From Diphasiastrum complanatum (lineage: Eukaryota > Streptophyta > Lycopodiopsida > Lycopodiales > Lycopodiaceae): a stretch of DNA of 64,000 nucleotides. Under the pieces are notes generated by a model that was not told the origin of the DNA, did no database searches, and saw only the letters and a list, made by a program, of their open reading frames with translations. Within the stretch, counting starts at the first letter, position 1. Every line of letters starts with the position of its first letter. The translations under genes were made by a program, and so were the position numbers. The stretch is taken from NCBI GenBank assembly GCA_029204225.1, contig CM055092.1, positions 64,715,190-64,779,189 of the forward strand, given 5' to 3'. Below are positions 12,901 to 64,000 of the stretch, piece after piece.

Positions 12901-14090
12901 ATTTTTTTTTTATGTAAATTGCCTAGGAACTGGGAAATCAGCTTTTTGAACTAGAATTGCTAAAAATAGCTTCATGCATGAAATTTTCTCTGATCAATTT
13001 ACTAAATACCCATGTACCATGCATACAGATATATCCCTGAATGTTCATCAATAGAAAAGCACTACACTGAGTCATATGCATGCATGCATCAGAACATTAC
13101 GAAAAATTTGCAAATTTTAGTTAAAAAATTGCCAAACTTTCGATAGCCATAACTTTCTCTACAGGACACCAAATTGGTCGCTGTAAAGCACAGCACGGAG
13201 GGAGAGTAGGTCTACAAGATAGTTGCCACATCACCCTGCCATCTACGCTTCACACGTGCAATCTGTAACTGACCAAAAAATAGGTAGGGGCGCGCACTTT
13301 TTCAAGGTTGATTCATCAAAAATCTATCTACAGCCCTATAAGCATCCAATCAGAGGTTACAAGCACTTTTCTAAGGTTCATTAGAGAGGGATAAAGGCTT
13401 CTATCAAGTCCATCAAGCAATCATATGCTTAGATCATGCAAAAATTGCATTTTTGGACTCCTTCAACAAGCAAAACTTCAACATGATGGTGCCTAAGCCT
13501 CACACTACCAAATTGGATGAATGATAGCTCAAAAAAGAGGAAATCCATCATATCTTCGAGCTTGTAATGGGATCCAACAAGTTCAGACCACCATTTGATA
13601 GGTATTCATGCTCAAAAGTCCTCAAAAATACACTATTTTTTTTTGACTTTTTGAGACCCTTAATAGTGTCCAATCCTACCCAAAATTCATGACAGCCTTA
13701 GGAAATCTTCATTACACCTTTGAAAATGTGCATGAAAAGTATTGGCTATGAATTGTAAGAAAACCCCCAAAATTAGTCCAAAAACCATCAAAAAACCATG
13801 TTTGTGACCAAAATTTGTGGATCCAGTCCACAATTAAGTGCCATCAGACCCAAATCCCTGTAATTAAATTACATGAAAGCAGTAAAAGTTCTGATTTTAG
13901 TCAATTATAGACTCTAGAGCCCATTTGTAGTCCAAAACCCAAATTGTGGTAAAAAGTCACTATCTTAGCATCCTTTTGACTTTTCAACCAACATGCAATC
14001 ATTAGATCCAATCAATAATGACTGTAAAACAACAAGTACAATCTAGAAAACATACTAGATCAGTAACAATGATAAATTCCAAGCAAAAAC
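9960..14090. other. AT-rich stretch without a recognisable gene
   Basis: Many short ORFs on both strands, none with domain signatures. The 13.1-13.9 kb part (CATAACTTTCTCTACAGGAC and following) resembles retrotransposon untranslated or LTR sequence in style, but no ends could be defined. Confidence 0.4.
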
Positions 14091-14092
14091 AC

Positions 14093-14500
14093 TTCAATAT
14101 CTTTCATGCCATTTCTTTTAAGCGTCACTTGATCTTCATTATGAACAACTCTCTGATTTGGAACAAGATTCTTTGCCCTTCTCCGTCTTCCAATATTTCT
14201 TCTCTTACAAGTTTATAGGATATTATTGACTGCTCACAATACTTTATCCGTCATCAAGGGAGACTTGCTAAATCCTCCTCCTCTCTCCTCGAATCCTACT
14301 TAAAACAAACCCTCTCCTCCATTTCTTTTGACAGGGCTTGGGCTGCTAACCCTTCCCTTCGGGCTGATGAATTTATGGCTGCCTCCAATATGCTCAAAAT
14401 CCTCGATCACACCAAATCCGCTATCCTTCGAAAAAGAATCCACCTCAATTGGCTTCGGAAAGTAGACCTTCCCTCGGCTTTATTCTTCAAGGAAGATTAA
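14093..14500 (+). pseudogene. LINE fragment, endonuclease-to-RT linker
   Basis: Plus strand, after a stop near 14218 the frame reads RHQGRLAKSSSSLLESYLKQ, later DHTKSAILRKRIHLNWLRKV and ALFFKED. This matches the linker before LINE reverse transcriptase (usual ..W.QRSR..WL..GD.NT.FFH). It is a segment missing from the minus-strand LINE at 7.7-9.7 kb. Confidence 0.6.
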
Positions 14501-14719
14501 AGCTCAACAAAGGAGAAAAGACTCTTGTGGCCTTATCGTTGATGGTCCCTCATGTTGTCTATTTTCCATGTTTCTTGTTTCATTAGTTAATGTTTTTTCA
14601 TTAGCATGCACAATGAGCAAATGAGCTAACCTCCCCTCTCACTCTCTTTCTCTCCCTCTTGCTCTACTTCTTCTATCTATCAATCTCCCTTTCTTCTCTT
14701 CTTCTCTCCCTTTCAATCT

Positions 14720-14910
14720 AAAATCATGATGTGTGTGTGGTTAGTGTAAGGAAGAGTAGTGGTAAAGAGTAGTAGTGTTAGAGAATAGAGTAGGAAGCAT
14801 CTTGACATAGTTAGGTATCTATCCAGGATCTAATCCTTATTGACAGGTGGGGAGATGCTCACTGATTATATCTACACATCCTATAGTGGCGCCGTTGTTC
14901 AGGATAGGTT
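14720..14910 (+). mobile_element. Possible LTR end and primer-binding site (gypsy-like)
   Basis: TGGCGCCGTTGTTCAGG at 14887 resembles the TGGCGCCGTTGCC primer-binding site of many plant Ty3/gypsy elements. The 5' LTR would end just before it. No second LTR was found, so this is a solo remnant or chance match. Confidence 0.35.
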
Positions 14911-14973
14911 CCACTAACTAGTTTAGTTGCATTTTTATGAAAAATCAAGGTTTTTCTACTGCAAAACAGTGAA

Positions 14974-15549
14974 AGAACCTTTTCACAGCCAACCCTTGCA
15001 CGAGTAACCTTCATAGACCAAATCAATAGCTAGATCTGCACCAGATCCAGCTACTGTGAAAATCTTAGGCAATCGGAGCAATGATAAAAAAGTTATCAAG
15101 GAAAAACCACCGTAAGAGGCCTAAAATCACACTATCGGCCAATCATATTGATCTGATCCCTTAAGATCCAGATTGAATCCATTGTAATAGCAAGATCCAA
15201 CATCCTTGGACTCTACTACCAAATGAATCTGATATCTGAACGATCAATCGCGAGAAGAACAACGAATCAAGCACAAGACAAAACAAGGTTTTCTTTTAGG
15301 ATTCGAGTTACATTCGTCATAGAACCTTTGCAGAGCATCAAGATCTGCAAACCAATCTTTGTAGAGGGCATAAATGGAATCAGAGCAGTGAAATTAGCCT
15401 ACCTACGGGATCTAATCTTGAAAATCCAATATTTGGAATAAGTTGTGTGAGAGTTCACCTCGTGCAAGGGTTGAACCTTCGTAGACAGGCTGAACATTCA
15501 CAAAACCTTCACAGGGGGCAGTCAAATCACCTTCTGAACCTTCACAGAC
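14974..15549 (+). repeat. Dispersed short motif, consensus GAACCTTCACAGA
   Basis: Same-orientation variants at 14974, 15005, 15321, 15471, 15503 and 15535 (GAACCTTTTCACAG, TAACCTTCATAGACC, AGAACCTTTGCAGAGC, TGAACCTTCGTAGACAGG, AAACCTTCACAGGG, TGAACCTTCACAGAC). They lie just upstream of the TATA box of the next ORF. Confidence 0.5.
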
Positions 15550-15650
15550 TTCATTGAGGTCTTAGAATATTGTGATGAAGGTCCTTGCAAAAATTTGGTT
15601 GGAACTGAGCTAGGAAAAGTGCACGTCTCCTAATACGCATTCTAGTTTCC

Positions 15651-15660
15651 GCTATATAAG
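15651..15660 (+). promoter_or_regulatory. TATA box
   Basis: GCTATATAAG, a consensus plant TATA element, about 295 bases before the ATG at 15947 and just after the repeated GAACCTTC motif. Confidence 0.55.
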
Positions 15661-15946
15661 AGGAAAATTCGAGTCATTAGATACTTCATTCAGTGAAGCT
15701 CTACTGAAAAATCCAACAAAATTTCAAAGTCATCTGTTTGTGACCAAACTTCTCACAAGCTCTCATCTTTTATTGCATCCACCCTCTACACACTCAGTTC
15801 TACCATTATCGCTTTCGTTTTTACAATTTTCACATTCTCAATTTTTTAAGCCTTTCACCCATTTTTGATGTCTTTCCACCTTTTTGATCACCTTTTCGCC
15901 TGCCCACATTTCCATCGATAACAGTCCTTACCATCCATCTAACAAC

Positions 15947-17229
15947 ATGAAGTCTTCCTCCTCTCTTGACGATACTGGTACGAAGAAGGTCATCACATGC
16001 GAGGTGCCTTCTGCCGCCCAGGTTTGGGCCCTGCCATCTGAGTCTTTGATAAAATCTTGGCTTCAAGCTGCTGGCCTCCTTCTAGAAGCAATGGGCTTTT
16101 TCTCAGTGCTCTTCTCTTCTGACATCAACATGGATCTCGCTCTCCATGCTTACGCCACGTGGGACACACAGAAGCCGCATTTCCATATCCTGTACCAAGG
16201 TACTACGTACATTGTACAAATTAACTCTAACTCCATGGTCACCGTCGACATCGTGTCCAGTGATCGCCAACCCATCACCCATCACCAAGCCAAAAGCCTC
16301 ATTAAACCATACGTAACGACAACCACCCCTGAGCTCCCAATCAAAACTAACAATGGGTATTTGATAGAGGCTATCAATGACCCCATAACCCAAGCCGCCT
16401 ACTACTTGTTGAACAACTTCTTAGTTGTTATTTCAACTTTTCGCAAGGACCACATACAATCCATGTTGCTAAGCCAAATCGTGGAATCCTTCATAGAATT
16501 CCCGAGCCTCTCGGTGGTGCCATATGACTGGCATACCTTCCATATGACTGACATACCTTCCTAATCCATGAGCTCTCCATTGCCATCAAGCCTAACATGC
16601 ACAACCGCATCGCCACAGGACCTTTGCTATGTAACTTTGCCTGTGCGCTTCTCGAAGAGAAGGGTCGCGAGCTTAACTGCTCCACCGTTCTTTCTGCCAC
16701 CGTTCCAAAAATGCCCAAAATGAAAAGTTTCACTAACTTGTACCCTCCTTCTGTTGCATCCACCTCCACCCAACCAACAGTTACTGAGACAATGGCCAAC
16801 AAACGCATGCGTGGCACAGCCCCATTCTCATCTAGCCCTCCTACCACCAAACAACGCACCACACCACCACAACCCACTTCTGTTGCTTTCACAGCCACAA
16901 CTTCCTCTTCCGCTCAACCATCTGCTACCACCACCACATCTACCCCTATTGCTTCCATTCCGACATCCTCTACCTTTGTTTTCACATCTTCCACCGCTTC
17001 CATCACCATCGCTTCGTCTATACCCCTTGTCTCCCCTTCTACCCCACTCCTTCAGATCAACTCCCTCGATTCACAACTCTCTCCCGACACCCTTGCTTGG
17101 ATGAACCTCATCAACCTTTCGCTGCCTCGACAAGGGAGAGATGCAACCTATGCTCAGCATAGGTCGTCACTCGCGTGCTCTAGTCCAACCTATGCTCAAC
17201 ATAGGATCTCTTCGCAATCTGCTTGCTAA
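15947..17229 (+). pseudogene. Unknown ORF, gag-like layout, frameshifted by a 20-bp tandem duplication
   Basis: From ATG 15947 the frame runs open to 16564, then continues in another frame from about 16561 to 17229. The break coincides with an exact-length tandem duplication of CATATGACTGGCATACCTTC (16521-16540) as CATATGACTGACATACCTTC (16541-16560), so the frameshift is recent-looking and its cause is visible. The N-terminal 200 residues look globular (KSWLQAAGLLLEAMGFFSVL, LALHAYATWDTQKPHFHIL); the second part continues FLIHELSIAIKPNMHNRIAT and then becomes Ser/Thr/Pro-rich. The tail runs into the first two copies of the palindrome array. I do not recognise the domain; the layout resembles transposon gag-like or plant-mobile-domain proteins, but that is a guess. 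Confidence 0.5.
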
Positions 17230-17583
17230 TCTATGTTGAGCATAGGTTGGAAGAGGACCAGAGATTCAACCAATGCTCAGCATAATTTGAAAGGTGGTTA
17301 GAATTGAAAAATCTCGCCGGCATCCTATGCTGAGCATAAGCGAAGACATCCTATGCTCAGCATAGGTTGGATAAGAGCGTGCGAGTAACGACCTATGCTG
17401 AGCATAGGATGTCTGCGCAATTTGCTTGCTAACCTATGCTGAGCATAGGTTGGAATAGGACTAAAGATGAAAGCTATGCTCAGCATAGGTCGAAAGGAGA
17501 TTAGAATTGAAGAATCTCGCCTCCGTCCTATGCTAAGCATAAGTTGTTACTAAGGACCCGATACAACCTATGCTCAACATAGG
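17147..17583. repeat. Array of eleven 17-bp palindromes, consensus CCTATGCTGAGCATAGG
   Basis: Copies start at 17147, 17189, 17230, 17270, 17324, 17350, 17392, 17433, 17473, 17527 and 17567. Each is a near-perfect palindrome (centre TCA, TGA, TAA or CAA varies). Start-to-start spacing is 42, 41, 40, 54, 26, 42, 41, 40, 54, 40, so copies 1-5 and 6-10 form a 203-bp higher-order duplication. The spacer between copies 1 and 2 recurs inverted between copies 6 and 7. The array separates the unknown ORF from the ParB-like/methyltransferase gene. Confidence 0.9.
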
Positions 17584-18517
17584 TCGCTACTCGTATTTTT
17601 CTTGTTTTACAAGGCTTTGTCTGAGAAAAGTGACCTTTTGAGTTGTTTTAGTAAGAAAATGTGTTGAATGTTTAGTTTTGTTTTTTCAATTTTTTTCACA
17701 AAAACGGCTTGTCTTATTAAAGTTTTCAGTATTTTCATTAAGGTAGTGTTTTAAATTTTCTTAAAAAGTCCTTTTTTTTTTTTTGCAGATTTTCAATTGT
17801 CTTTGATAATTTTAGTCAAGGATTTCTTTCAGAATTTTGGGTAAACCTCAAGATATTCCGTTGAAAGATAAGAAAAAATTTATGTACTACTTCACCAAAG
17901 GGGTCAACAACACAAAGCTTTCAGAGCTTTTTATTCATAGCCTGGCAGGGGAGACTCACAATTCAAAGTTCAATAAAGATTGCTTGCTGATCAACCAGAT
18001 GAGGATGAGGAAGAAGGTTTTGTGAATGTACTTGTAAAGGAGACGGATAAGTCTCGTTCTATTTTCATTCTGAACAAGATTATGATAAAGATTCGACTTT
18101 TCCAAGACGAGGCCATCAAAGCCTATTTTGATAAAGCTCTAGTTACTTTGCTGTGTAATTATAAAACATATTTTTATTCATGTTTGTCTACATTTATTCA
18201 TTCTTTGAACTTTCAAGTAAAAGCCTTTACTCATTATTTTTTAAACTTGATTTTTGTTTCTGTCCAGAGCATGAAACAATGCTTAAAAATGGTTCTAGCT
18301 GCTATTGTTGAGGAGAAAGATCCAGTCTATTCATTATTGAGTTCAAAAGGTGCATCTATTGGACCTCGCAAGCCCGCTTCTACCACTGTTCAGGTCACAA
18401 AGCCGACCTCTGAAAATGTTGAGGATGAAATTGTAGCTGTCCCTCATCCCAAAAAAAAAAAGATCTCATAATATTTCTGAGTCTTCTCCCACTAGACCTA
18501 AGTCACGCCCAAAGACC

Positions 18518-19120
18518 ATGGCTACACATCACCATAAGTCCATCCCGTCTGCTGAAAGCAAGAAAGCCGCCACCAAACCATCTATGTCGCTACTTGGTGC
18601 ATCCATCCGTCCTTTACAAGACAGCTTTGAGCTTGCCAAATTAAGAGAAGATATTCATAAAACAAAAAAAATAAAAGAAACAACTTTGATTTTAGATATA
18701 AATCAGTGTGATAGGCCACCTGTAGACCCAATAACAGGAGACAGGCCAATGGAAGTAAGAGAACCGAATGAAACACATGTACATAATTTAGAAATAAAAT
18801 TTAAAGATCATACACATGCCATAGTTACTCCTTTTGTTGTTTTGATTGATCCCAACGAATGCAACGATGTTGCAAATTTTGATTTTTCTTTATTAGATTC
18901 ATATCATTTTTTTGTTCTTGGGGACATACACAGTTTACAAGCCCGGAAATAATTATCTCAAGAATATCCCCATACTCCAAGCTTTTGAACTGTGAGTGCC
19001 ATTGTATTTGCTGGTCTGATAGTGAAAGAAGCGAAATTATTGGCTTGGGACCACAATATTGATCAGGACTACCGGATGAAAATGACCGTGATACAAAAGA
19101 ATTCGATTTTTTCACAAAGA
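18518..19120 (+). other. ParB-like (ParB/Srx fold) domain within the gene
   Basis: The reading passes from TLILDINQCDRPPVDP through VREPNETHVHNLEIKF, IVTPFVVLIDPNECN and YHFFVLGDIHSLQA, the order found in ParB-N domains: a conserved Arg, a 'hv..L' helix, P-x-V-V strand, then 'y.vl.G.hr..A'. After a stop the next block reads FAGLIVKEAKLLAWDHNIDQ, resembling the helical part after ParB-N (ls..Ea..la...N.d). In bacteria and phages ParB-like domains are found joined to N4/N6 methyltransferases (family knowledge). Assignment rests on pattern only. Confidence 0.5.
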
Positions 19121-19930
19121 ATACATGAGAGTCTCCAAAGCAGGAGATGTGAATCAACTTGACTTCAAAGCACTCTGTGCTCAAGAGATAGGCCTGTCTT
19201 TTGATTCGAAAAATCCTACGTAGAGCCTTACAAAATATGATATTTTTTTTCAGCTTGTTTTTTGTAGTGGCCAGGTAATTTGTTTTGCTATGCTTGTCAT
19301 GGAATGCTCTAGTCATAATATATGTTGTAATCCTTTTAAATTGTTTTTATCAGACTAAAATTTTGAACTCAATTTTAATATTCCATAAATTCCTTATCAA
19401 ATAATTTTTTTTTTTGATTTTAGGTGTAGGCCCTTGTTGATAAATTTTTTGATAAATGAGAAACTTTTCAAATAAAAGACCAACCTGCTCAGGGTGTCTC
19501 AAAGTCAAAGAAAAAAGTTGTGAGCACTCAAACTCTGAAGCCAATCCCTACAGAAATGGGAATATCAGAGTGGAAGAATATGCAAGAGATTAGCTCTTCA
19601 GAGCTAATAATAAGTGTTCTTTTTAGAGTTGTTGATGGTCAACTTTCTTTGACAAAAATGAGAAAAAAATTTCAATGGTAATAGTCATAATCTAAATATT
19701 TATTTTCATATTACCTTTTGTAATAAAGTGATTTTCATGATTTTGTTGGATATTTAACAATTATACTTTTTAAATACAGACATAAATTATTTATAAAAGT
19801 TCAAGAAATCCTTGTGACAGGGTTAAATTATCAAGATTTTGATGAGTGTCAGAGGCTTTATCCTCTAAGCAGCCGAAATGAATCCTTGAGTCCATTTCTG
19901 ATTTTGTTTAGAGACATGGTATTTATTTCA

Positions 19931-20083
19931 CCCATGCTTAGCATAGGTGCTTATTAATTGTTTCTTTTCAATATTCTATGTCTCCTATGCTAAACAAAGC
20001 TTTTTCTTTATTATTATTATTTTTAAATAAGTTAAGTCTCCTATTCTATTTTATATTTTTTGTCTCCCATGCTAAGCATAGCT
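19931..20083. repeat. Further copies of the 17-bp palindrome inside an intron of the methyltransferase gene
   Basis: CCCATGCTTAGCATAGG at 19931, a degenerate TCCTATGCTAAACAAAGC at 19981 and CCCATGCTAAGCATAGC at 20067 lie within the intron between 19918 and 20097, about 2.5 kb from the main array. Confidence 0.7.
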
Positions 20084-20096
20084 TTTTCTTTTTCAG

Positions 20097-21286
20097 TCTC
20101 CCGAAGACAAGAAAAACAAAGTCCTTCCAGAGCAATTCAAGAGACATATTCTGAAGACAAAAGCAGAAAAAAAGGATAGGGAGAGATTGGCACAAGGTGA
20201 GACTATTGTGGAGGAGGATCCATTAGAGACCACCTTTCCAAAAGTGTCGATGATCAACCATGCTTTTACTCGGTTGAGGAGGGCGATTGTAGAGATTTTT
20301 TTTTTTAAAAAAAAAAGACCTTATACACTCTGCATCGCCGATATACCATATGGATTTCAGATGAAAGAATCATTAAATGATGATTCCCCTTTCAAATTCA
20401 TCGAAATCCATAGTTTTATGCAGGGTTTTTTTGAAGTCACAACTTCTCCAATTTGGAGAGTTGTTATTTTTCATTCTTCTTGGCAGTCAGCTTCAGTACA
20501 GAAAGCTCTACTAACTTTCTGTAATGCGGGAATAGAGAATGTTGTGTGGTAAGTTTCTAAGTTCCTGAATTATTAATTCGTATTTAAATTCATATTTTTA
20601 TTTTAAATTTTAAATTTTAAAGTTAAAATTTTAAACTTATTTTACTTGTAATGTTTCATGTCAGGTACAAGCCCAATGTCAGGAACTCGGGAGGAGCTCA
20701 ACTTTGCAATAAAATAGAATACATAACCATCGGTTATTATTCTTTAGATGACAAACGTTCGATGCTTCATTACAACACTTTCGGACTGACAAGTTTTGAA
20801 AACTTGTTCCAGTATCCAACCGTGACGAAGAAATTAAAGAATCCAATGACGGGTTCTGTGGCTTGTCCCTGCCAAAAGTCACAACAATTAATTAATCATT
20901 TAACTGATATTTTTTCTCACCCAACTGATTGGGTTAAAAATTTATTTAGTGGTAGCACTACGAGCGCATGTGCTATTCAGAAAGGCAGACATGTTGCTGC
21001 AGTAGATTTAGATACTAATTTAGTTGATTTTGTAAAAATGAGAATGAAATATCATTCAGTTTTGCTAGATGAACTATCTGAGGTGGGAAAGAGTTTAGAC
21101 AGTGAGGATACAATAATTCACTTGTCCAAGGAACCTCAGCCTCCTACTAGCAAAAAAGTAGGCGACACAAGAGAATTTGCTGATGTCTTGGTTCAAAATT
21201 ACAATGTGGTTATGGTAGTCGAAGAAATTCTAGAAGAGGTGCCACTTGAAAGTACAGTGGCTACTCAAGAAAAAAAAAAGATGTAA
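20097..21286 (+). other. Beta-class DNA methyltransferase domain (two exons)
   Basis: Exon 20097-20548 carries motif IV as IADIPYGF (20334-20357; usual D/N-P-P-Y, first Pro is Ile here), then IWRVVIFHSSWQSASVQKAL and FCNAGIENVVW; exon 20665-21286 continues YKPN, then NKIEYITIGYYS, and near the C-terminus DWVKNLFSGSTTSACAIQKG followed by RHVAAVDLD, matching motif I (usual D-P-F-x-G-S-G-T-T...G-R...E/D-x-D; one Gly appears missing). Motif IV before motif I defines the beta class of N4C/N6A methyltransferases. The junction GTTGTGTG|GTACAAG restores V-V-W-Y-K-P. A homopolymer TTTT/AAAA at 20298-20316 just before motif IV may hide a small indel. Confidence 0.7.
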
Positions 21287-21833
21287 ATGACCTTGATGAT
21301 TTTTGGAAATAAAAAATTCTTTTTCGTTTTAAAGAATTATTGCGTTTATATTTTTTGATGTATTGTGTTTTGAATTCTTTTTGATTGATTTACTATTCTT
21401 AAATTTATTTTTTAATGATTTAAAATTAAGAATTTGAAATATTTAAAATTTTTTAATATTGATAATCATTACAAAAAATTAAAATTGTAACGATTTGTCA
21501 AGTTTACAATATTTTAATTTTAAAAGTGTTATTATAATATTTTTTGTAAAAAAAATATTGTTAGAAATTTCAAGAAATGAAAAGATTTTTTAGATTTTTT
21601 TCAGGGTGATTTTAATATTTTCACAAATCATTTAATCTTGATTATTGTAAAGTAATTTTATTTGCGTTTATTTAATGTTTAAATATTTAATAAACTTACA
21701 TAGGTATAAGTAAAGATTTTAAAAAATTTAGAACTTCAAAAAATATTGATTCAAATTATTGACATAATTTAAAAAATATTTTTTTTCGTTACAAGAATTG
21801 TAATTTAAAAAACTTTTAAAATTCCAAAAAAAA
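21287..21833. other. Very AT-rich spacer
   Basis: Long A and T runs, no gene seen; separates the methyltransferase gene from the tandem array. Confidence 0.6.
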
Positions 21834-24800
21834 AACTATAACTTTTGTTTTAAGTAAGCAAAAAATATTTTTTAGATATTTTAGTGGTTGTGTATCTAAT
21901 GATTTTATTTTGAATAGTATTATTATTTAATATGAGCTAATTTTAAGTTATTTATGAAAATCTATTGACCAAATTTTTGTAGCTTGAATTATTTTCTTGC
22001 AAAATACGACATTTTTTTAACATTACAATATATATATTTGAAGCATTTTAAATTTGGATATTTTTTAAAAAAATTTAAATTTTTTAAAAAAAATGGGTCT
22101 CCAAGTCATTTCTCTTTTTTTTGGTCATCATATTCATGGTGTATTCCGACCTCCATTTCGACCCTACAAGTACCTCTAGGATCAGCTACAGAATTTGCGC
22201 CTTAAATGCTTTGATGGCGATCGGCCCAAAAATCAACAATAAAACCTACAAAACAAAAACTAGTATTGAAGTTTCCTAAGTATATTACCACAAAAAATAA
22301 TTGCAACAAACTAAATTTACACAAAGAACAACACAGATCCATATGGAATCCTATATATGCACCAAAAACTTGGATATCTATCATAGGAATAGAAGAGTTG
22401 GCTTCAGAATAGCCATTGGAATAGGCGTTGATTTAATAAATTCCATAGATCTACGTATTCCGATGGGCATTCCGACCATCTGTAAATCTGGATCTGCAAC
22501 AAAAAATTCTATAGTACCCTCATCCCTCACATGGATCTACATCACCCTAATAGAAAATAAGCCATCAAAATAGCCTTCGGAATAGCAAATCATGTAGATC
22601 CACCTATATTGATGGCCTTTCTCACCTACCTGTTACCTTAAAAAACTTTTGTGGATCTGCCGCCTCATTTGCCTCAAAATAAACCTGCACAGAAAACGTG
22701 AAGTCAATAAAACCAAAGTGCAATCACATTGAGATGGAGACTATGATGTAAGAGAAAGAGATAGTGAGAAAAAGAGATAGAGATAGAGATTACCTTACAT
22801 CCAATAATAAAATTACCTCCATCCTCCACCTTCTCTTTTTTTCTTGAGCTCACCACTTTTGATTTTCCAAGGAGTAAGTAAAGAAGAAGAGCAAGAGGAA
22901 CAAGCAAAGTGCAAGAGGAACAAACAAAGTGCAAGAGGAGGATGCAAAGAGCAATATCAATAGGAGCATTCAAATGTGAGGAGGATAAGGAGGGTGAGAA
23001 GGATAAAGAGAGTGAGGAAGTTCAACAAACAAGGGAGAGGACAAAGGCGGTAGGTACATCCCTTTATTGTGAAGATTATTAAAATATTATCTTCCTATCT
23101 CGAGTTTGGGGCATGTCCATGGTGATTTCCACTAAATTTCATGTTGTACATAAAAGGAGTGTGAGTTGAGCACATATCCTTCTAGTGTAGCTTGGATTTG
23201 AGTTAGATAGGTTCAATTATGATGACATGCAGATGTTTAGATAGCATGCAAAGTTTTATTGTATGCATGCAAGCCACATGCAATCAGTGCATGCAACATG
23301 CAAAGTAGTTTATGTGATCGACACATGTCTAGGCAGTTTTATGAGTTGACATGCAGTACATGCAACATCCATGCATGCGGTTACACATGTGGATCTATGG
23401 TAGGTGAATTAGTTCAGTTAAGTGGACTTTCCATGCAACTCCACTGTAGGAATTCGAGTCTCTCTCATGTAGGAAAAGCTGAGCATGTTTTGCTACATTG
23501 TGAATATTGAGATTTTGGTGTTTTGGACTCATTCTCTCTCTACCTGAGTTTTCTATGTTCGATTTTCTCTCTCTACCTGAGAGCAGCCTCTTTTTCCCAT
23601 ACTGAACACTTAGAATTATTTCTGACATTCATTTCTCATAGTGAAGAGTTAGATTTTTTCATCAGATGTATGCCATTGTGCTCTTGTCTTAGATTTTTTA
23701 AGCATACTCTTCTTTGATCAATCTTGTGCAATCACAACACCTCAATAAGATCCTGTAGGGTGTGTGGTGAAGTTCACACGTGCTAAAAACTTCACATTGA
23801 TAACATCACCCACTCCTCTTCTCTTTTCAAAAATGCCACAACAATGGTCAGCCATTTCAAAATTTGCAAGAAACTATCTAACCCTCGATATACATCTCAT
23901 ATTAGCTTCAGTACTCCGAGGGCTGTTTCAAGGTCCAAACTAAATTAGATTCAGTCTTCCATGGCCTGTTTCGAGGTCTATTCCAAGACCTCCACTAAAT
24001 GCTAAAATCAACTCAAAATTGTTGCATTCTAAAATCACACAATTATCAAAGATTGTCGGCTGTTATATTCCCAAACATTGTCAAAGAATATATAGTGCAT
24101 TGAACGACACTATTTTTTATCTGCTAAATTGTACTCATCTGGTTAAATGATGTCATACGTATTCAAACATCGACATTTTTGGCATCCAACTACTATTCTG
24201 GGGTGTCCAACTACTCAAAATTCTAAAATCTGTCTTTTCTCAAAAGTAGTGATTTTGAAAGATAGTAATTTTCCAAGGGATTTATTTACATATGTCCCTA
24301 TTTCCAGTACTCGAGAAAACTGGCATAGTATAGTAATGGAACTGGCAAAAACTTTGATTGTAATAAAGGCCTACGTACAAAGATCCAAAAGCAAAATAAT
24401 AAAAACTATAGCTTTTGTTTTAAGTAAGCAAAAAATATTTTTTATATATTTTAGTGGTTGTGTATCTAATGATTTTATTTTGAATAGTATTATTATTTAA
24501 TATGAGCTAATTTTAAGTTATTTATGAAAATCTATTGACCAAATTTTTGTAGCTTGAATTATTTTCTTGCAAAATACGACATTTTTTTAACATTACAATA
24601 TATTTATTTGAAGCATTTTAAATTTGGATATTTTTTAAAAAAATTGAATTTTTTTTAAAAAAATGGGTCTCCAAGTCATTTCTCTTTTTTTTGGTCATCA
24701 TATTCATGGTGTATTCCGACCTCCATTTCGACCCTACAAGTACCTCTAGGATCTGCTACAGAATTTGCGCCTTAAATGCTTTGATGGCGATCGGCCCAGA

Positions 24801-27800
24801 AATCAACAATAAAACCTACAAAACAAAAACTAGTATTGAAGTTTCCTAAGTATATTACCACAAAAAATAATTGCAACAAACTAAATTTACACAAAGAACA
24901 ACACAGATCCATATGGAATCCTATATATGCACCAAAAACTTGGATATTTATCATAGGAATAGAAGAGTTGGCTTCAGAATAGCCATTGGAATAGGCGTTG
25001 ATTTAATAAATTCCATAGATCTACGTATTCCGATGGGCATTCTGACCATCTGTAAATCTGGATCTGCAACAAAAAATTCTAGAGTACCCTCCTCCCTCAC
25101 ATGGATCTACATCACCCTAATAGAAAATAAGCCATCAAAATAGCCTTCGGAATAGCAAATCATGTAGATCCACCTATATTGATGGCCTTTCTCACCTACC
25201 TGTTACCTTAAAAAACTTTTGTGGATCTGCCGCCTCATTTGCCTCAAAATAAACCTGCATAGAAAACGTGAAGTCAATAAAACCAAAGTGCAATCACATT
25301 GAGATGGAGACTATGATGTAAGAGAAAGAGATAGTGAGAAAAAGAGATAGAGATAGAGATTACCTTACATCCAATAATAAAAAAACCTCCATCCTCCACC
25401 TTCTCTTTTTTTCTTGAGCTCACCACTTTTGATTTTCCAAGGAGTAAGTAAAGAAGAAGAGCAAGAGGAACAAGCAAAGTGCAAGAGGAACAAACAAAGT
25501 GCAAGAGGAGGATGCAAAGAGCAATATCAATAGGAGCATTCAAATGTGAGGAGGATAAGGAGGGTGAGAAGGATAAAGAGAGTGAGGAAGGTCAACAAAC
25601 AAGGGAGAGGACAAAGGCGGTAGGTACATCCCTTTATTGTGAAGATTATTAAAATATTATCTTCCTATCTCGAGTTTGGGGCCATGTCCATGGTGATTTC
25701 CACTAAATTTCATGTTGTACATAAAAGGAGTGTGAGTTGAGCACATATCCTTCTAGTGTAGCTTGGATTTGAGTTAGATAGGTTCAATTATGATGACATG
25801 CAGATGTTTAGATAGCATGCAAAGTTTTATTGTATGCATGCAAGCCACATGCAATCAGTGCATGCAACATGCAAAGTAGTTTATGTGATCGACACATGTC
25901 TAGGCAGTTTTATGAGTTGACATGCAGTACATGCAACATCCATGCATGCGGTTACACATGTGGATCTATGGTAGGTGAATTAGTTCAGTTAAGTGGACTT
26001 TCCATGCAACTCCACTGTAGGAATTCGAGTCTCTCTCATGTAGGAAAAGCTGAGCATGTTTTGCTACATTGTGAATATTGAGATTTTGGTGTTTTGGACT
26101 CATTCTCTCTCTACCTGAGTTTTCTATGTTCGATTTTCTCTCTCTACCTGAGAGCAGTCTCTTTTTCCCATACTGAACACTTAGAATTATTTCTGACATT
26201 CATTTCTCATAGTGAAGAGTTAGATTTTTTCATCAGATGTATGCCATTGTGCTCTTGTCTTAGATTTTTTAAGCATACTCTTCTTTGATCAATCTTGTGC
26301 AATCACAACACCTCAATAAGATCCTGTAGGGTGTGTGGTGAAGTTCACACGTGCTAAAAACTTCACATTGATAACATCACCCACTCCTCTTCTCTTTTCA
26401 AAAATGCCACAACAATGGTCAGCCATTTCAAAATTTGCAAGAAACTATCTAACCCTCGATATACATCTCATATTAGCTTCAGTACTCCGAGGGCTGTTTC
26501 AAGGTCCAAACTAAATTAGATTCAGTCTTCCATGGCCTGTTTCGAGGTCTATTCCAAGACCTCCACTAAATGCTAAAATCAACTCAAAATTGTTGCATTC
26601 TAAAATCACACAATTATCAAAGATTGTCGGCTGTTATATTCCCAAACATTGTCAAAGAATATATAGTGCATTGAACGACACTATTTTTTATCTGCTAAAT
26701 TGTACTCATCTGGTTAAATGATGTCATACGTATTCAAACATCGACATTTTTGGCATCCAACTACTATTCTGGGGTGTCCAACTACTCAAAATTCTAAAAT
26801 CTGTCTTTTCTCAAAAGTAGTGATTTTGAAAGATAGTAATTTTCCAAGGGATTTATTTACATATGTCCCTATTTCCAGTACTCGAGAAAACTGGCATAGT
26901 ATAGTAATGGAACTGGCAAAAACTTTGATTGTAATAAAGGCCTACGTACAAAGATCCAAAAGCAAAATAATAAAAACTATAACTTTTGTTTTAAGTAAGC
27001 AAAAAATATTTTTTATATATTTTAGTGGTTGTGTATCTAATGATTTTATTTTGAATAGTATTATTATTTAATATGAGCTAATTTTAAGTTATTTATGAAA
27101 ATCTATTGACCAAATTTTTGTAGCTTGAATTATTTTCTTGCAAAATACGACATTTTTTTAACATTACAATATATTTATTTGAAGCATTTTAAATTTGGAT
27201 ATTTTTTAAAAAAATTGAATTTTTTTTAAAAAAATGGGTCTCCAAGTCATTTCTCTTTTTTTTGGTCATCATATTCATGGTGTATTCCGACCTCCATTTC
27301 GACCCTACAAGTACCTCTAGGATCTGCTACAGAATTTGCGCCTTAAATGCTTTGATGGCGATCGGCCCAGAAATCAACAATAAAACCTACAAAACAAAAA
27401 CTAGTATTGAAGTTTCCTAAGTATATTACCACAAAAAATAATTGCAACAAACTAAATTTACACAAAGAACAACACAGATCCATATGGAATCCTATATATG
27501 CACCAAAAACTTGGATATTTATCATAGGAATAGAAGAGTTGGCTTCAGAATAGCCATTGGAATAGGCGTTGATTTAATAAATTCCATAGATCTACGTATT
27601 CCGATGGGCATTCTGACCATCTGTAAATCTGGATCTGCAACAAAAAATTCTAGAGTACCCTCCTCCCTCACATGGATCTACATCACCCTAATAGAAAATA
27701 AGCCATCAAAATAGCCTTCGGAATAGCAAATCATGTAGATCCACCTATATTGATGGCCTTTCTCACCTACCTGTTACCTTAAAAAACTTTTGTGGATCTG

Positions 27801-30800
27801 CCGCCTCATTTGCCTCAAAATAAACCTGCATAGAAAACGTGAAGTCAATAAAACCAAAGTGCAATCACATTGAGATGGAGACTATGATGTAAGAGAAAGA
27901 GATAGTGAGAAAAAGAGATAGAGATAGAGATTACCTTACATCCAATAATAAAAAAACCTCCATCCTCCACCTTCTCTTTTTTTCTTGAGCTCACCACTTT
28001 TGATTTTCCAAGGAGTAAGTAAAGAAGAAGAGCAAGAGGAACAAGCAAAGTGCAAGAGGAACAAACAAAGTGCAAGAGGAGGATGCAAAGAGCAATATCA
28101 ATAGGAGCATTCAAATGTGAGGAGGATAAGGAGGGTGAGAAGGATAAAGAGAGTGAGGAAGGTCAACAAACAAGGGAGAGGACAAAGGCGGTAGGTACAT
28201 CCCTTTATTGTGAAGATTATTAAAATATTATCTTCCTATCTCGAGTTTGGGGCCATGTCCATGGTGATTTCCACTAAATTTCATGTTGTACATAAAAGGA
28301 GTGTGAGTTGAGCACATATCCTTCTAGTGTAGCTTGGATTTGAGTTAGATAGGTTCAATTATGATGACATGCAGATGTTTAGATAGCATGCAAAGTTTTA
28401 TTGTATGCATGCAAGCCACATGCAATCAGTGCATGCAACATGCAAAGTAGTTTATGTGATCGACACATGTCTAGGCAGTTTTATGAGTTGACATGCAGTA
28501 CATGCAACATCCATGCATGCGGTTACACATGTGGATCTATGGTAGGTGAATTAGTTCAGTTAAGTGGACTTTCCATGCAACTCCACTGTAGGAATTCGAG
28601 TCTCTCTCATGTAGGAAAAGCTGAGCATGTTTTGCTACATTGTGAATATTGAGATTTTGGTGTTTTGGACTCATTCTCTCTCTACCTGAGTTTTCTATGT
28701 TCGATTTTCTCTCTCTACCTGAGAGCAGTCTCTTTTTCCCATACTGAACACTTAGAATTATTTCTGACATTCATTTCTCATAGTGAAGAGTTAGATTTTT
28801 TCATCAGATGTATGCCATTGTGCTCTTGTCTTAGATTTTTTAAGCATACTCTTCTTTGATCAATCTTGTGCAATCACAACACCTCAATAAGATCCTGTAG
28901 GGTGTGTGGTGAAGTTCACACGTGCTAAAAACTTCACATTGATAACATCACCCACTCCTCTTCTCTTTTCAAAAATGCCACAACAATGGTCAGCCATTTC
29001 AAAATTTGCAAGAAACTATCTAACCCTCGATATACATCTCATATTAGCTTCAGTACTCCGAGGGCTGTTTCAAGGTCCAAACTAAATTAGATTCAGTCTT
29101 CCATGGCCTGTTTCGAGGTCTATTCCAAGACCTCCACTAAATGCTAAAATCAACTCAAAATTGTTGCATTCTAAAATCACACAATTATCAAAGATTGTCG
29201 GCTGTTATATTCCCAAACATTGTCAAAGAATATATAGTGCATTGAACGACACTATTTTTTATCTGCTAAATTGTACTCATCTGGTTAAATGATGTCATAC
29301 GTATTCAAACATCGACATTTTTGGCATCCAACTACTATTCTGGGGTGTCCAACTACTCAAAATTCTAAAATCTGTCTTTTCTCAAAAGTAGTGATTTTGA
29401 AAGATAGTAATTTTCCAAGGGATTTATTTACATATGTCCCTATTTCCAGTACTCGAGAAAACTGGCATAGTATAGTAATGGAACTGGCAAAAACTTTGAT
29501 TGTAATAAAGGCCTACGTACAAAGATCCAAAAGCAAAATAATAAAAACTATAACTTTTGTTTTAAGTAAGCAAAAAATATTTTTTATATATTTTAGTGGT
29601 TGTGTATCTAATGATTTTATTTTGAATAGTATTATTATTTAATATGAGCTAATTTTAAGTTATTTATGAAAATCTATTGACCAAATTTTTGTAGCTTGAA
29701 TTATTTTCTTGCAAAATACGACATTTTTTTAACATTACAATATATTTATTTGAAGCATTTTAAATTTGGATATTTTTTAAAAAAATTGAATTTTTTTTAA
29801 AAAAATGGGTCTCCAAGTCATTTCTCTTTTTTTTGGTCATCATATTCATGGTGTATTCCGACCTCCATTTCGACCCTACAAGTACCTCTAGGATCTGCTA
29901 CAGAATTTGCGCCTTAAATGCTTTGATGGCGATCGGCCCAGAAATCAACAATAAAACCTACAAAACAAAAACTAGTATTGAAGTTTCCTAAGTATATTAC
30001 CACAAAAAATAATTGCAACAAACTAAATTTACACAAAGAACAACACAGATCCATATGGAATCCTATATATGCACCAAAAACTTGGATATTTATCATAGGA
30101 ATAGAAGAGTTGGCTTCAGAATAGCCATTGGAATAGGCGTTGATTTAATAAATTCCATAGATCTACGTATTCCGATGGGCATTCCGACCATCTGTAAATC
30201 TGGATCTGCAACAAAAAATTCTATAGTACCCTCGTCCCTCACATGGATCTACATCACCCTAATAGAAAATAAGCCATCAAAATAGCCTTCGGAATAGCAA
30301 ATCATGTAGATCCACCTATATTGATGGCCTTTCTCACCTACCTGTTACCTTAAAAAACTTTTGTGGATCTGCCGCCTCATTTGCCTCAAAATAAACCTGC
30401 ATAGAAAACGTGAAGTCAATAAAACCAAAGTGCAATCACATTGAGATGGAGACTATGATGTAAGAGAAAGAGATAGTGAGAAAAAGAGATAGAGATAGAG
30501 ATTACCTTACATCCAATAATAAAAAAACCTCCATCCTCCACCTTTTTTTTTTTCTTGAGCTCACCACTTTTGATTTTCCAAGGAGTAAGTAAAGAAGAAG
30601 AGCAAGAGGAACAAGCAAAGTGCAAGAGGAACAAACAAAGTGCAAGAGGAGGATGCAAAGAGCAATATCAATAGGAGCATTCAAATGTGAGGAGGATAAG
30701 GAGGGTGAGAAGGATAAAGAGAGTGAGGAAGGTCAACAAACAAGGGAGAGGACAAAGGCGGTAGGTACATCCCTTTATTGTGAAGATTATTAAAATATTA

Positions 30801-32106
30801 TCTTCCTATCTCGAGTTTGGGGCCATGTCCATGGTGATTTCCACTAAATTTCATGTTGTACATAAAAGGAGTGTGAGTTGAGCACATATCCTTCTAGTGT
30901 AGCTTGGATTTGAGTTAGATAGGTTCAATTATGATGACATGCAGATGTTTAGATAGCATGCAAAGTTTTATTGTATGCATGCAAGCCACATGCAATCAGT
31001 GCATGCAACGTGCAAAGTAGTTTATGTGATCGACACATGTCTAGGCAGTTTTATGAGTTGACATGCAGTACATGCAACATCCATGCATGCGGTTACACAT
31101 GTGGATCTATGGTAGGTGAATTAGTTCAGTTAAGTGGACTTTCCATGCAACTCCACTGTAGGAATTCGAGTCTCTCTCATGTAGGAAAAGCTGAGCATGT
31201 TTTGCTACATTGTGAATATTGAGATTTTGGTGTTTTGGACTCATTCTCTCTCTACCTGAGTTTTCTATGTTCAATTTTCTCTCTCTACCTGAGAGCAGCC
31301 TCTTTTTCCCATAATGAACACTTATAATTATTTCTGACATTCATTTCTCATAGTGAAGAGTTAGATTTTTTCATCAGATGTATGCCATTGTGCTCTTGTC
31401 TTAGATTTTTTAAGCATACTCTTCTTTGATCAATCTTGTGCAATCACAACACCTCAATAAGATCCTGTAGGGTGTGTGGTGAAGTTCACACGTGCTAAAA
31501 ACTTCACATTGATAACATCACCCACTCCTCTTCTCTTTTCAAAAATGCCACAACAATGGTCAGCCATTTCAAAATTTGCAAGAAACTATCTAACCCTCGG
31601 TATACATCTCATATTAGCTTCAGTACTCCGAGGGCTGTTTCAAGGTCCAAACTAAATTAGATTCAGTCTTCCATGGCCTGTTTCGAGGTCTATTCCAAGA
31701 CCTCCAATAAATGCTAAAATCAACTCAAAATTGTTGCATTCTAAAATCACACAATTATCAAAGATTGTCGGCTGTTATATTCCCAAACATTGTCAAAGAA
31801 TATATAGTGCATTGAACGACACTATTTTTTATCTGCTAAATTGTACTCATCTGGTTAAATGATGTCATACGTATTCAAACATCGACATTTTTGGCATCCA
31901 ACTACTACTCTGGGGTGTCCAACTACTCAAAATTCTAAAATTTGTCTTTTCTCAAAAGTAGTGATTTTGAAAGATAGTAATTTTCCAAGGGATTTATTTA
32001 CATATGTCCCTATTTCCAGTACTCGAGAAAACTGGCATAGTATAGTAATGGAACTGGCAAAAACTTTGATTGTAATAAAGGCCTACGTACAAAGAAGCAA
32101 AATAAT
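21834..32106. repeat. Four-copy tandem array of a 2.57-kb unit
   Basis: Landmarks recur with a 2570-2571-bp period: AAAAACTATA(A/G)CTTTTG at 21834, 24401, 26972 and 29543; the last copy ends near 32106 with a 6-bp loss. Copies are nearly identical. Copies 1 and 4 share variants (ATTCCGACCATC, CTATAGTACCCTC) that differ in copies 2 and 3 (ATTCTGACCATC, CTAGAGTACCCTC), an A-B-B-A pattern. The unit holds a purine-rich block, a cluster of TGCATGCA-type motifs and CTCTCTCTACCTGAG repeats. Short ORFs recur only because the DNA recurs; none has a domain. No LTR ends, primer site or transposase seen. Confidence 0.95.
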
Positions 32107-33690: not shown

Positions 33691-34380
33691 TGTGAAAAGT
33701 ACAATACTAAGGACCATAAATGGATCTTTGAATGATCCACAAGGTGATTGTATGCTTGTTAAACAATCTATCAGAAACTAGTCATCAGAAAACAAGATCT
33801 AGTTTAGCAGCTTGATAGGAAACAAGTAGAGAAATCAAAGCATTGATCAAATAGTCTAATCCAACTCCACACGTGTGGAAATAAGGCTGTAGTACGGCCT
33901 GTAGACAGTGTTTACAAAGTGCCAAAGCTGGGTTTCATTGGAAAAATAGAGTAATCACCATACAATGAGAGGAAACTCGAGATTCTCTTTGAGGCTCCAA
34001 AAAGTTTCTATCTTCTCACTATGGAGAATGGAAATACATAGTAAAACACACTTCCTTTGCAAAGTTAGGTGAAAATCTAGCATGTAATAAGGAAGTAGAC
34101 TCCACTTTCTTGCCCTAATGTGAAAACCCTAGTCTAGATCCAAGAGTCATGCTTGGTAGGTGCATGGTAGGTACAAATCTCATCATAAATCATGGTCTAG
34201 ATCCTACAAAGTAGGAATCACTACCAAATAGACACAACCACTCCTCTTGACTCGTGGTAACCTACTTTAGGTGTGTATGTACAAGTGGCACTTTGGCCAT
34301 TCAAGTAACCAACAAACAATATTGGCAAAATGTACAATATTCTACATGGCTAGATTTGCCAATGTAGGCAATTTTTCACA
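33691..34380 (-). repeat. 3' LTR of the copia element
   Basis: 690 bp on the low-coordinate side, TG...CA ends (TGTGAAAAGT ... TTTTTCACA). Differs from its partner at few positions, including a 1-base length difference. Confidence 0.95.
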
Positions 34381-36129
34381 CTCCTCCTCAAATCTAGCCT
34401 TGTAGATCACAATGCTTTTATCAATAACTCCAATTGAAGATCTAATCTTGACAAATGAATCTTTAGTTAAAGGTTTAGTAAACAAATCAGCCAAGCAACT
34501 TGATGATGGCACGTGTTGGAGCTTGATCTCTTTAGCTTGCACTTTTTCTCTCACGAAATGATGAGCAATTTCGATGTGTTTGCTCCTTGCATGGAATGTA
34601 GGATTAGTTGCAAGTGATTGGGCTGATTGGTTGTCACAATAGATGATAGGGATCTCCTCCTCCATGACATGAAGCTCCACCAATAGCCTTTTGAGCCACA
34701 AGACCTCCTTGCATGTTGATGTCAAGGCCTTGTATTCGGATTCTGTGGAAGATAGGGAGATGGTATCTTGCTTTTTGGAAAGCCATGATACTACTCCATC
34801 ACATAGAAAGGTGGCAAATGCACTTGTTGATCTTCTATCCACTTTGTCACCTGCAAAATCCGAGTCACTATAGGCTCTTAAGCCAAGATTAGTTCCTCTA
34901 TACAAAATACCAAAATTCTTAGTGAATGAAATGTATCTAAGAACTCTTTTGGCCATCTTCCAATGTGAAACTAGAGGACTTTGCATGAATTGGCTTAACT
35001 TTTCAACACTATAACTAAGATCAGGTCTAGTTATAGTTAAATAGATCAAGGAGCCAATAAGCCTTCTATATAATGTGATGTCCTCAAAGGATGCTTCATC
35101 ACAACCAATAGATGCTTTTACATGTTGCTCCATTGGTGTCTCAATGCCTTTACAATTCTTCATTCCAAATCTATCTAGGATGGATGTAGCATATTTAGAT
35201 TGACAAATGAAGCTAAAATCACATCCTCTAATAACCTCTATTCCAAGAATGAAGCTCAATAGGCCGAGATCTACCATCTTAAACTCTTTTGCTAAAGCAA
35301 TTTTTACATTTCTAATTCCATCTAGATCATTACCACTCAAGATAATGTCATCTACATACAAAACAAGAATAATGATCATGCCATCATGAAAACTTATATA
35401 CAATGATGGATCATAGGCACTCATTACAAAATTGATGGAAATGAGAAAAGAGTTTAGCCTAGAGTACCATGCTCTAGGTGCTTGCTTGAGCCCATAAAGG
35501 CTCTTCTTCAAAAAACACACCTTTCCTTCATGCTTTGCCTTGATGAAGCCCTCGGGTTGCCTCATGTAGATCTCTTCCTCCAAATAACCATTGAGGAATG
35601 CATTTGTGAAGTCAAGTTGGAATAGCTCCCAATTGAAGATTGTAGCAAGACTAATGATCAACCTGATAGTAACAAGCTTAGCCACAGGAGCAAAAGTCTC
35701 ATCATAGTCAATGCCTTTGGTTTGTAAAAAACCTTTGGCAACAAGCCTAGCTTTATGCTTGCTTATTGATCCATCTTGATTATACTTCAATCTAAACACC
35801 CACTTGCAATCAAGAGGTCTCTTCCCTTGAGGAAGATCCACAAGATCCCAAGTATGATTCTCAATAAGAGCATCATACTCTACTTGCATAGCATCCATCC
35901 AACTTTTAGACTTACAAGCATCTTCATAGCATGTTGGCTCATCTAACATTGAAGTAAGAAAGGTGTAAGATGTGAAAGATGATGAGCCTTCCCTTTGATC
36001 ACCTTGACCATCATAGGTGAGCCTCAATGGCTCGGATCTTGCCCTTGTAGATCTTCTTGGAGTTCTTGGAGTTCTTGCATCTTGAGGTGGATCCTCAAGT
36101 TCTTCTTCACTTGAAAGCTCCTCCTCCAT
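34342..36129 (-). CDS. copia reverse transcriptase and RNase H part of pol
   Basis: 595 codons. RT motifs: WVFRLKYNQDGSISKHKARL, LDFTNAFLNGYLEEEIYM, catalytic LYVDDIILSGND. RNase H motifs: AYSDSDFAGD, SLSSTESEYKAL and DNQSAQSLA, then HARSKHIEIAHHFVREKV. Complete; overlaps the upstream frame by 105 bases, which locates the single frameshift. The end runs into the 3' LTR. Confidence 0.9.
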   Translation of the reverse strand: MEEELSSEEELEDPPQDARTPRTPRRSTRARSEPLRLTYDGQGDQREGSSSFTSYTFLTSMLDEPTCYEDACKSKSWMDAMQVEYDALIENHTWDLVDLPQGKRPLDCKWVFRLKYNQDGSISKHKARLVAKGFLQTKGIDYDETFAPVAKLVTIRLIISLATIFNWELFQLDFTNAFLNGYLEEEIYMRQPEGFIKAKHEGKVCFLKKSLYGLKQAPRAWYSRLNSFLISINFVMSAYDPSLYISFHDGMIIILVLYVDDIILSGNDLDGIRNVKIALAKEFKMVDLGLLSFILGIEVIRGCDFSFICQSKYATSILDRFGMKNCKGIETPMEQHVKASIGCDEASFEDITLYRRLIGSLIYLTITRPDLSYSVEKLSQFMQSPLVSHWKMAKRVLRYISFTKNFGILYRGTNLGLRAYSDSDFAGDKVDRRSTSAFATFLCDGVVSWLSKKQDTISLSSTESEYKALTSTCKEVLWLKRLLVELHVMEEEIPIIYCDNQSAQSLATNPTFHARSKHIEIAHHFVREKVQAKEIKLQHVPSSSCLADLFTKPLTKDSFVKIRSSIGVIDKSIVIYKARFEEECEKLPTLANLAM

Positions 36130-38363: not shown

Positions 38364-38994
38364 CTTACTAGCAAGATTCTACACACAAGATATAGATTTG
38401 TTTGGACCTGAAACTCACAAAGGTTTCAAACTTGCAGTGTTTCACTCAAATGTTGACTTCTAATCCAACAGATGGATTTGTAATCACAGTTCTATCACTC
38501 CCTCACAAGCTGGAATGAAGATAAGATGAGATGAAAACTACACTCAAGCAAATCTTGCCAATCTTGGCTATTCTTGGACAAAAACTGACTCTATCTCTCT
38601 CATTCACTTTGATGTACTTTCAAGACCTGGTTTCCACTTTAAGAAGGTCTGAAATCAGCCTAGATTAATTAGTTTTCATGAAACAAATTCAAAACTAATC
38701 AATGGCAAGTGATCTTGGTAGCTTATCCTAGGATTTGCACCAAAAATTACATCAAACTGACACCATATGAATTTTCTATGATCCAATGAATATGAGTTAT
38801 TAAATGCTGGTTCAGAGATGCCCACACGTGTGAACAGTACGGATTTTGATCCTGAAAAAGTTTGGGATCAAATCCCCTCACCAAAACCTGGATACTAGCT
38901 CGCCCTTCCAATACTAGCTTTTTGCACCAAAACCTGCTAAAACTGGATTAGATTCAAACACAGATCAATGGCCTTGTACTTGGATCTGATACCA

Positions 38995-63758: not shown

Positions 63759-63824
63759 CTGCATCATTTTCAATTAAAAAATGATCATTAGATTTTTACA
63801 TTACATACAAACATACCACTGCTC

Positions 63825-64000
63825 ATCTCACAAAGCCGGCCTCTGAAAATGTTGAGGATGAAACCGTAGCCGTCCCTCATTCCAAAAAAACAGATCTCAT
63901 AATATTTCTGAGACTTCGCCCACTAGACCTAAGTCACGCCCAAAGACCATGGCTACACATCGCCATAAGTCCATTCCTTCTGCTGAAAGTAAAAAAGCCG
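63825..64000 (+). pseudogene. Second copy of the ParB-like/methyltransferase gene, starts mid-gene
   Basis: From ACAAAGCCGGCCTCTGAAAA onward the sequence follows 18399-18575 closely (same direction), covering ENVEDE.VAVPH, the A-run, SPTRPKSRPKTMATH and KSIPSAESKKA. The A-run is shorter here than at 18451. It begins abruptly within desaturase flank and runs off the window. Confidence 0.9.

Follow-up and report, generated by a model that had tools for sequence, protein, structure and literature searches.

What carries a gene that joins a ParB-like domain to a DNA methyltransferase (MTase) in the genome of a plant, and what would its enzyme do there? Fusions of ParB-like and MTase domains are a phage or bacterial arrangement, and a sequence-only reading of 64 kb of DNA from Diphasiastrum complanatum (the window, by which the whole stretch analysed is meant) had placed such a gene, divided by introns, at 17831..21286. 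A bacterial- or viral-type base-modification gene was thought to have been captured, to have gained introns and to have spread. In this study, the copies of this gene, their termini, their neighbours and their relatives were compared, focusing on gene structure, domain content, selection and a palindrome array upstream of the gene.

Structure of the gene in the window

Homology to other fetched copies extends over approximately 17144-22134 on the + strand, a larger span than 17831..21286, and this transposon remnant comprises the palindrome array, the ParB-MTase gene and the 3' end of the element. Splicing was predicted from the sequence, the intron ends being chosen by eye and then positioned by script, and gives six exons on the + strand. 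Exon 1 (17831..18152), taken from the three-frame translation, has an uncertain start and a broken frame and is followed by GT at 18153. Exon 2 (18268..19274), between the AG ending at 18267 and the GT at 19275, encodes a basic linker and the ParB/Srx-like domain, the latter at about 18674-19111; it contains frameshifts near 18456 and 19107 and in-frame stops at 18950, 18986 and 19221. Exon 3 (19424..19677; AG ending at 19423, GT at 19678) is matched in genomic copies and relatives and has one in-frame stop in the window copy. Exon 4 (19780..19918) is bounded by the AG ending at 19779 and the GT at 19919, and relatives were judged by eye to have an intron at the same place. Exon 5 (20097..20548; AG ending at 20096, GT at 20549) carries the motif IV block IADIPYGF, with DIPY at 20340-20351, and the last exon (20665..21286), which follows the AG ending at 20664, carries the SAM-binding motif LFSGS-TT and the stop codon, and is the exon matched to PF01555 and shown in alignment A1. 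The GT-AG introns of the earlier reading could be located in this way at all five pairs of ends. The motifs that it had named are likewise all present on the + strand and in the order it gave: DIPY, VVW|YKP, which spans the intron at 20549-20664, IEYITIGY in the last exon, and the LFSGSTT...VDLD block at about 20942-21013. The SAM loop of the window copy (LFSGS-TT) is one residue short, and with its stops, frameshifts and this missing residue the window copy of the ParB-MTase gene is a pseudogene.

The 3' terminal inverted repeat (TIR) ends the remnant at 22115..22134 (+ strand; ...GGTCATCATATT). No 5' TIR was found in the window with up to 6 mismatches allowed. A second copy, a fragment on the + strand cut by the window end (63814..64000), is 90% identical to 18381-18569, and an MTase match lies beyond it at C1:64781448.

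Several further repeats were observed in the window. A 2.57-kb unit is present at 21826-32102 in four head-to-tail copies that are 98.9-99.5% identical; since these units start within the last 309 bp of the transposon, the 3' end of the element has been caught up in tandem amplification. Just upstream of the palindrome array, 15869-17229 holds two overlapping open frames with no Pfam match over the cut-off, and 15900-16500 is part of another high-copy repeat (2226 candidates, of which the best 40 were scored). The two ends of 15900-22134 recur, 99% identical and equally far apart, at G000:C1:64859149-64865384, about 128 kb downstream, and the locus therefore probably belongs to a duplicated segment. 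A Copia-type retrotransposon, recognised by eye, occupies 33691-39685 with frames at 34342-38378 and is flanked by 99% identical repeats (33691-34380 and 38995-39685).

Copies and termini

A total of 1605 candidates were obtained with the MTase profile from the 1.74 Gb genome to which the window belongs, and the best 150 were scored, all 150 being over the cut-off. Twenty copies of 7-10 kb each were fetched from this genome; they divide into one main group and further groups that are more distant (about 67-78% DNA identity), and their matchable exon pieces lie in the same order. The copy L028 has AACACGATGAC at its 5' end and GTCATCATGTT at its 3' end, with GTAG flanking both. In 20 small end fetches, all from best-matching places, AACACGATGAC was present in 11 of 11 5' ends and GTCATCATGTT in 7 of 9 3' ends; genome-wide, the 5' end gave 1055 candidates and the 3' end 995, of which the best 40 each were scored. 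Both ends were read in three independent elements, the C24 and C1400 elements being counted as one because of their identical flanks, and all three have a target site duplication (TSD) of 4 bp, read by eye as GTAG, TCAA and TTAA. A 6-bp duplication (TGTAGA), read from L028 alone, was dropped when two further elements showed 4 bp. Paired ends give lengths of about 8.5 kb (L028), 8.3 kb (C9) and 4.4 kb (C1400 and C24). A 4-bp TSD is a trait of the Sola superfamily, which was weighed for this element on that ground and was not adopted. At G000:C22:12333634-12347569, four MTase matches stand in a row about 4.5 kb apart, likely a tandem array of element pieces.

The region is thus very probably a decayed copy, without a transposase gene, of a TIR DNA transposon measuring about 8.5 kb in the longest copy read. 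That the gene had spread in the genome is borne out by the 1605 candidates; the unit that multiplied is a TIR transposon, which also has a gene for a DUF7869 protein, rather than a captured gene on its own.

The DUF7869 partner gene

The second gene is read from the opposite strand and is located towards the 5' end of the element. Its product matches DUF7869 (PF25273) strongly, with 120.6 bits in L020 and 175.6 bits in a relative from another lineage; Pfam names no function for the family, and no paper in the literature searched contains the word DUF7869. We regard the protein as a putative transposase-like protein. Eight of the 20 fetched copies contain sequence of this gene (L015 and L016 its N-terminal part only), and none was seen in the other 12; the window copy gave no match within 14001-22500. 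Among the listed 5' ends, 6 of 40 have a listed DUF7869 match 1.3-1.9 kb inside, on the opposite strand. The genome holds 2953 DUF7869 candidates, the best 150 of which were scored and were all over the cut-off, and 14 control genomes gave no DUF7869 match. Pairs of MTase and DUF7869 matches within 15 kb, counted from the 123 MTase and 128 DUF7869 matches on contigs C1-C24 among the best 150 of each, numbered 3 against 0.3 expected, a count that is too thin to lean on and that includes one pair which is not divergent.

In two DUF7869 genes of a different family (L060 and L061) the open frames are long, and the 10 kb fetched showed no ParB-MTase. The MTase is therefore cargo of one lineage, and DUF7869 elements in general need no such enzyme; no palindrome array was seen at either gene. 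L061 also has a PPR-type protein, recognised by eye. At L062, a DUF7869 gene of the element's type is accompanied by retrotransposon frames, and no MTase match was found in the stretch.

A second lineage and the origin of the gene

When the MTase alignment was searched against a collection of genome contigs, seven loci (L033-L039) were obtained, all from one metagenome-assembled (MAG) bin of an uncultured Trichormus sp. (ERR2144891_bin.1). These contigs have intron-like gaps at the same places, and L037 also has a retrotransposon-like frame (by eye); we therefore read them as host DNA in a cyanobacterial bin. Trichormus azollae is described as the symbiont of Azolla ferns, and the host of these contigs is most likely Azolla. 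A first frame of 562-594 codons containing the ParB-like domain is present in five of them (L033, L035, L037, L038 and L039). L035 and L037 have no stop or frame break in any recognised exon, and L038 and L039 stay open up to the limits of the sequence fetched. Three are damaged: exon 5 of L033 has a frame break, L034 contains stops, and L036 has a truncated first frame. IADIPYGF is found in all seven. DUF7869-gene sequence lies divergently upstream in 5 of the 7; the domain itself is present only in L036 (175.6 bits), the other four having only N-terminal parts of the gene within the fetched stretch, and in the two contigs without this sequence, 590 and 116 bases precede the first frame.

Scans of viral contigs yielded no confirmed relative. 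Phage matches were weak (best E 3e-4), and the two that were scanned (L029 and L030) contained no ParB family. Among plasmids the best place showed 26.6% identity (E 7e-7), and 31 of at least 5000 records cover 80% of the query. Across the searches of phages, plasmids, viral contigs and genome contigs no close prokaryotic or viral relative was found; a bacterial or viral origin of the ParB-MTase is plausible.

Methyltransferase and ParB-like domains

Exons 5 and 6 joined scored 29.3 bits against PF01555 (N6_N4_Mtase), over the curated cut-off of 26.7 bits; the last exon alone scored 23.8 bits (E 4.9e-5), under it, and the 707-residue exon join 26.1 bits, just below it, while the corresponding exon of L035 reached 37.0 bits. 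Motif IV (DIPY, 20340) precedes SAM motif I (LFSGS, about 20942), as in the beta class. By profile and motif order alone, then, the predicted protein is an amino-MTase, and the beta-class assignment made by the sequence-only reading holds; a failure to match this family, which that reading had named as grounds for giving it up, did not occur. Phage MTase profiles and the solved amino-MTases CcrMI and RsrI gave weak matches.

In alignment A1 (12 rows), the SAM loop of the rows other than the window reads LFSGSGTT in 9 of 11 and LFSGSDTT in 2 of 11, and LFSGS, TTSAC and the QK..QQL block are invariant over all 12 rows, which come from several subfamilies, save for the missing residue of the window copy; this suggests that cofactor binding is under selection. 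Motif IV of amino-MTases is usually [DNS]PP[YFW], a pattern to which DIPY does not conform. DIPY stands in 8 of 8 hand-chosen rows of alignment A6, where it is common to both lineages. Thirteen fetched copies other than the window have a readable block, and among them motif IV is DIPY in five, DITY in two, begins with N in four (L009, L019, L025 and L028) and with Y in two (L023 and L024). These departures from DIPY are read as decay, and could also mark variants.

The ParB-like region of exon 2 is 37-46% identical to L035, and the predicted model of L035 has the ParB-N/sulfiredoxin fold. The Foldseek matches of this model include ParB proteins solved with nucleotide; as the tool itself counts, none in the list reaches E <= 0.001, and two VIA rows ranked above 7bm8_A superpose badly with the model (rmsd 10.1). 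The GGSHS of the domain stands at what we take to be the expected place of ParB/Srx signatures. No Pfam ParB family was detected in the window pieces and joins, in L025 and L020, or in the first exons of L035, L037 and L039, and ParB sequence searches of phages, PHROGs and PDB gave nothing credible. A predicted structure of this genome's own ParB copies had a pLDDT of 42 and was discarded. A ParB-like domain ahead of the MTase, as first proposed, is accordingly supported by the modelled fold of a relative, and by none of the Pfam ParB searches.

Selection on the protein

Twelve copies, the window included, were picked for open last exons, which biases the set to better copies, and 136 columns were compared. 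When the main group was compared with the two others, dN/dS averaged 0.12 and 0.19; the average within the second group was 0.23 and that within the main group 0.48 (range 0.26-1.24), the remaining comparison being saturated. In the second lineage, five first-frame blocks gave dN of 0.06-0.09, with dS saturated for all of the 10 pairs but one, for which dN/dS was 0.03. These ratios indicate that the protein was under selection while the lineages diverged; many present copies are decaying.

The palindrome array

Eleven palindromes like ACCTATGCTnAGCATAGGT lie at 17146..17584, upstream of the ParB-MTase gene and between the places of the two divergent genes, with start-to-start spacings of 40-42 bp (seven times), 54 bp (twice) and 26 bp (once). 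Two more, at 19930-19948 and 20065-20083, are inside intron 4, together with a weaker one at 19984. With up to 2 mismatches per half, 13 sites were counted in the 64 kb against 0.05 expected from 20 block shuffles. Genome-wide, 1517 places match the 19-mer perfectly, and none matches its reversed control. Among the 20 fetched copies, six have at least 8 sites, ten have one to four and four have none.

The second lineage has a different palindrome, AAGTCGATGCnnnGCATCGACTT, at the same place. L039 has 10 sites (every 50-52 bp), L038 has 6 and a second variant, L037 has 5 (spaced 50 and 31 bp), L033 has 2 and L034 has 1; none was seen in L035 and L036, one of which ends 117 bases above the first-exon frame. 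Most spacings come close to an integral number of helical turns (3, 4 or 5), so the sites would share one face of the DNA.

Proposed function and alternative explanations

Domain content, gene arrangement, TIRs and TSDs, high copy number, the long-term purifying selection on the enzyme and the layout of the second lineage with its different palindrome have been shown above; from the conservation, the layout and the parallel arrays we infer self-methylation, with the palindromes as its sites. The element encodes two divergent genes, one for the DUF7869 transposase-like protein and one, spliced, for a protein of ParB/sulfiredoxin fold and beta-ordered N6A/N4C-type MTase, with the array of mostly helically phased palindromes between both. 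The ParB-MTase would be directed to the palindromes, or via them to the DNA of the element, and would methylate an exocyclic amino group there; this amino-group mark, unlike the 5mC of the host, would keep the shared promoter region active or make the ends competent to move. Taken whole, as element identity together with self-directed amino methylation, this is the explanation towards which we lean. That the enzyme serves the element is likely, and that the ParB-MTase itself binds the palindromes directly is offered tentatively. It is also conceivable, as a speculation of wider reach, that land-plant transposons carry a parS/ParB-like self-recognition in which the ParB-MTase would read a lineage-specific phased array and write 6mA/4mC, a mark absent from 5mC silencing, enzyme and array having co-diverged.

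The palindromes may instead be bound by the DUF7869 protein or a host factor, with the ParB-MTase providing a general protective or anti-silencing methylation of the element. Binding to motifs repeated close to element ends is common among transposases, and the array occupies the upstream region common to both genes; however, the two DUF7869 genes fetched from the other family showed no array, and two or three palindromes stand inside the MTase intron as well, and we hold this account to be possible rather than likely. The departure of DIPY in both lineages from the usual motif, and the presence among the fold matches of ParB solved with nucleotide, would also suit an MTase fold that is catalytically dead, in a protein that acts as a ParB-like DNA-binding and spreading factor on a parS-like array, either as a regulator or as a transposition cofactor. 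This is rather unlikely in view of the LFSGS/TTSAC loop and the QK..QQL block, invariant in the 12 rows but for the window's missing residue.

Other alternatives concern the nature of the genetic unit itself. Old host paralogues would look like the second-lineage copies, which are highly diverged and strongly constrained, and the family might then be a domesticated host methyltransferase that has merely expanded; the divergent DUF7869 partner in 5 of the 7 MAG contigs and the TIR/TSD-bounded copies in the window's genome make this quite improbable. Genes for ParB-like proteins and for MTases are found in many viruses, and the gene could accordingly belong to a large DNA virus that has integrated. 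Short TIRs, 4-bp TSDs, five introns, about a thousand or more candidate copies and the absence of a confirmed relative from the viral contigs scanned speak against such a virus, to which we give hardly any weight.

Whether plants have enzymatic 6mA/4mC, and what writes it, is contested. A family of the order of a thousand candidate copies, with a bacterial-type amino-MTase kept under purifying selection, is a concrete candidate for a plant writer of these marks, and the element's own array is a concrete candidate target in long-read data. If the proposal is true, the known link of mobile elements with enzymes that modify DNA would reach beyond retrotransposons to TIR elements, and plant biology would gain the ParB fold and parS-like arrays.

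Comparison with known systems

In the titles and abstract openings searched, a scope outside which most subscription papers and all preprints fall, no ParB-MTase transposon was found. In the VANDAL/VANC anti-silencing system of Arabidopsis, an element-encoded factor acts with short motifs in the element's non-coding DNA. The present element is similar in having its own factor and short non-coding motifs; VANC is, to our knowledge, not a methyltransferase, whereas a methyltransferase domain is present here. As in ParB-parS partition systems, a ParB/Srx fold is combined with a palindromic array adjoining the gene.

DIRS retrotransposons are reported to carry Dam-like adenine MTases and other retrotransposons to carry DNMT, and DNA transposons with DNMT in marine viruses are mentioned as well (PMC5890265). 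Like these retrotransposons, the element described here is a eukaryotic mobile element that encodes its own DNA methyltransferase; unlike them, with their Dam-like or C5-cytosine enzymes, it is a TIR DNA transposon with a beta-ordered amino-MTase, a ParB fold and a palindrome array. The bdelloid rotifer N4CMT (PMC8885841) is comparable: it, too, is a eukaryotic amino-MTase of the permuted PF01555 type, and its introns are conserved. N4CMT is encoded by the host, has a chromodomain and marks transposons, whereas the enzyme considered here is itself carried by a transposon and has a ParB-like domain.
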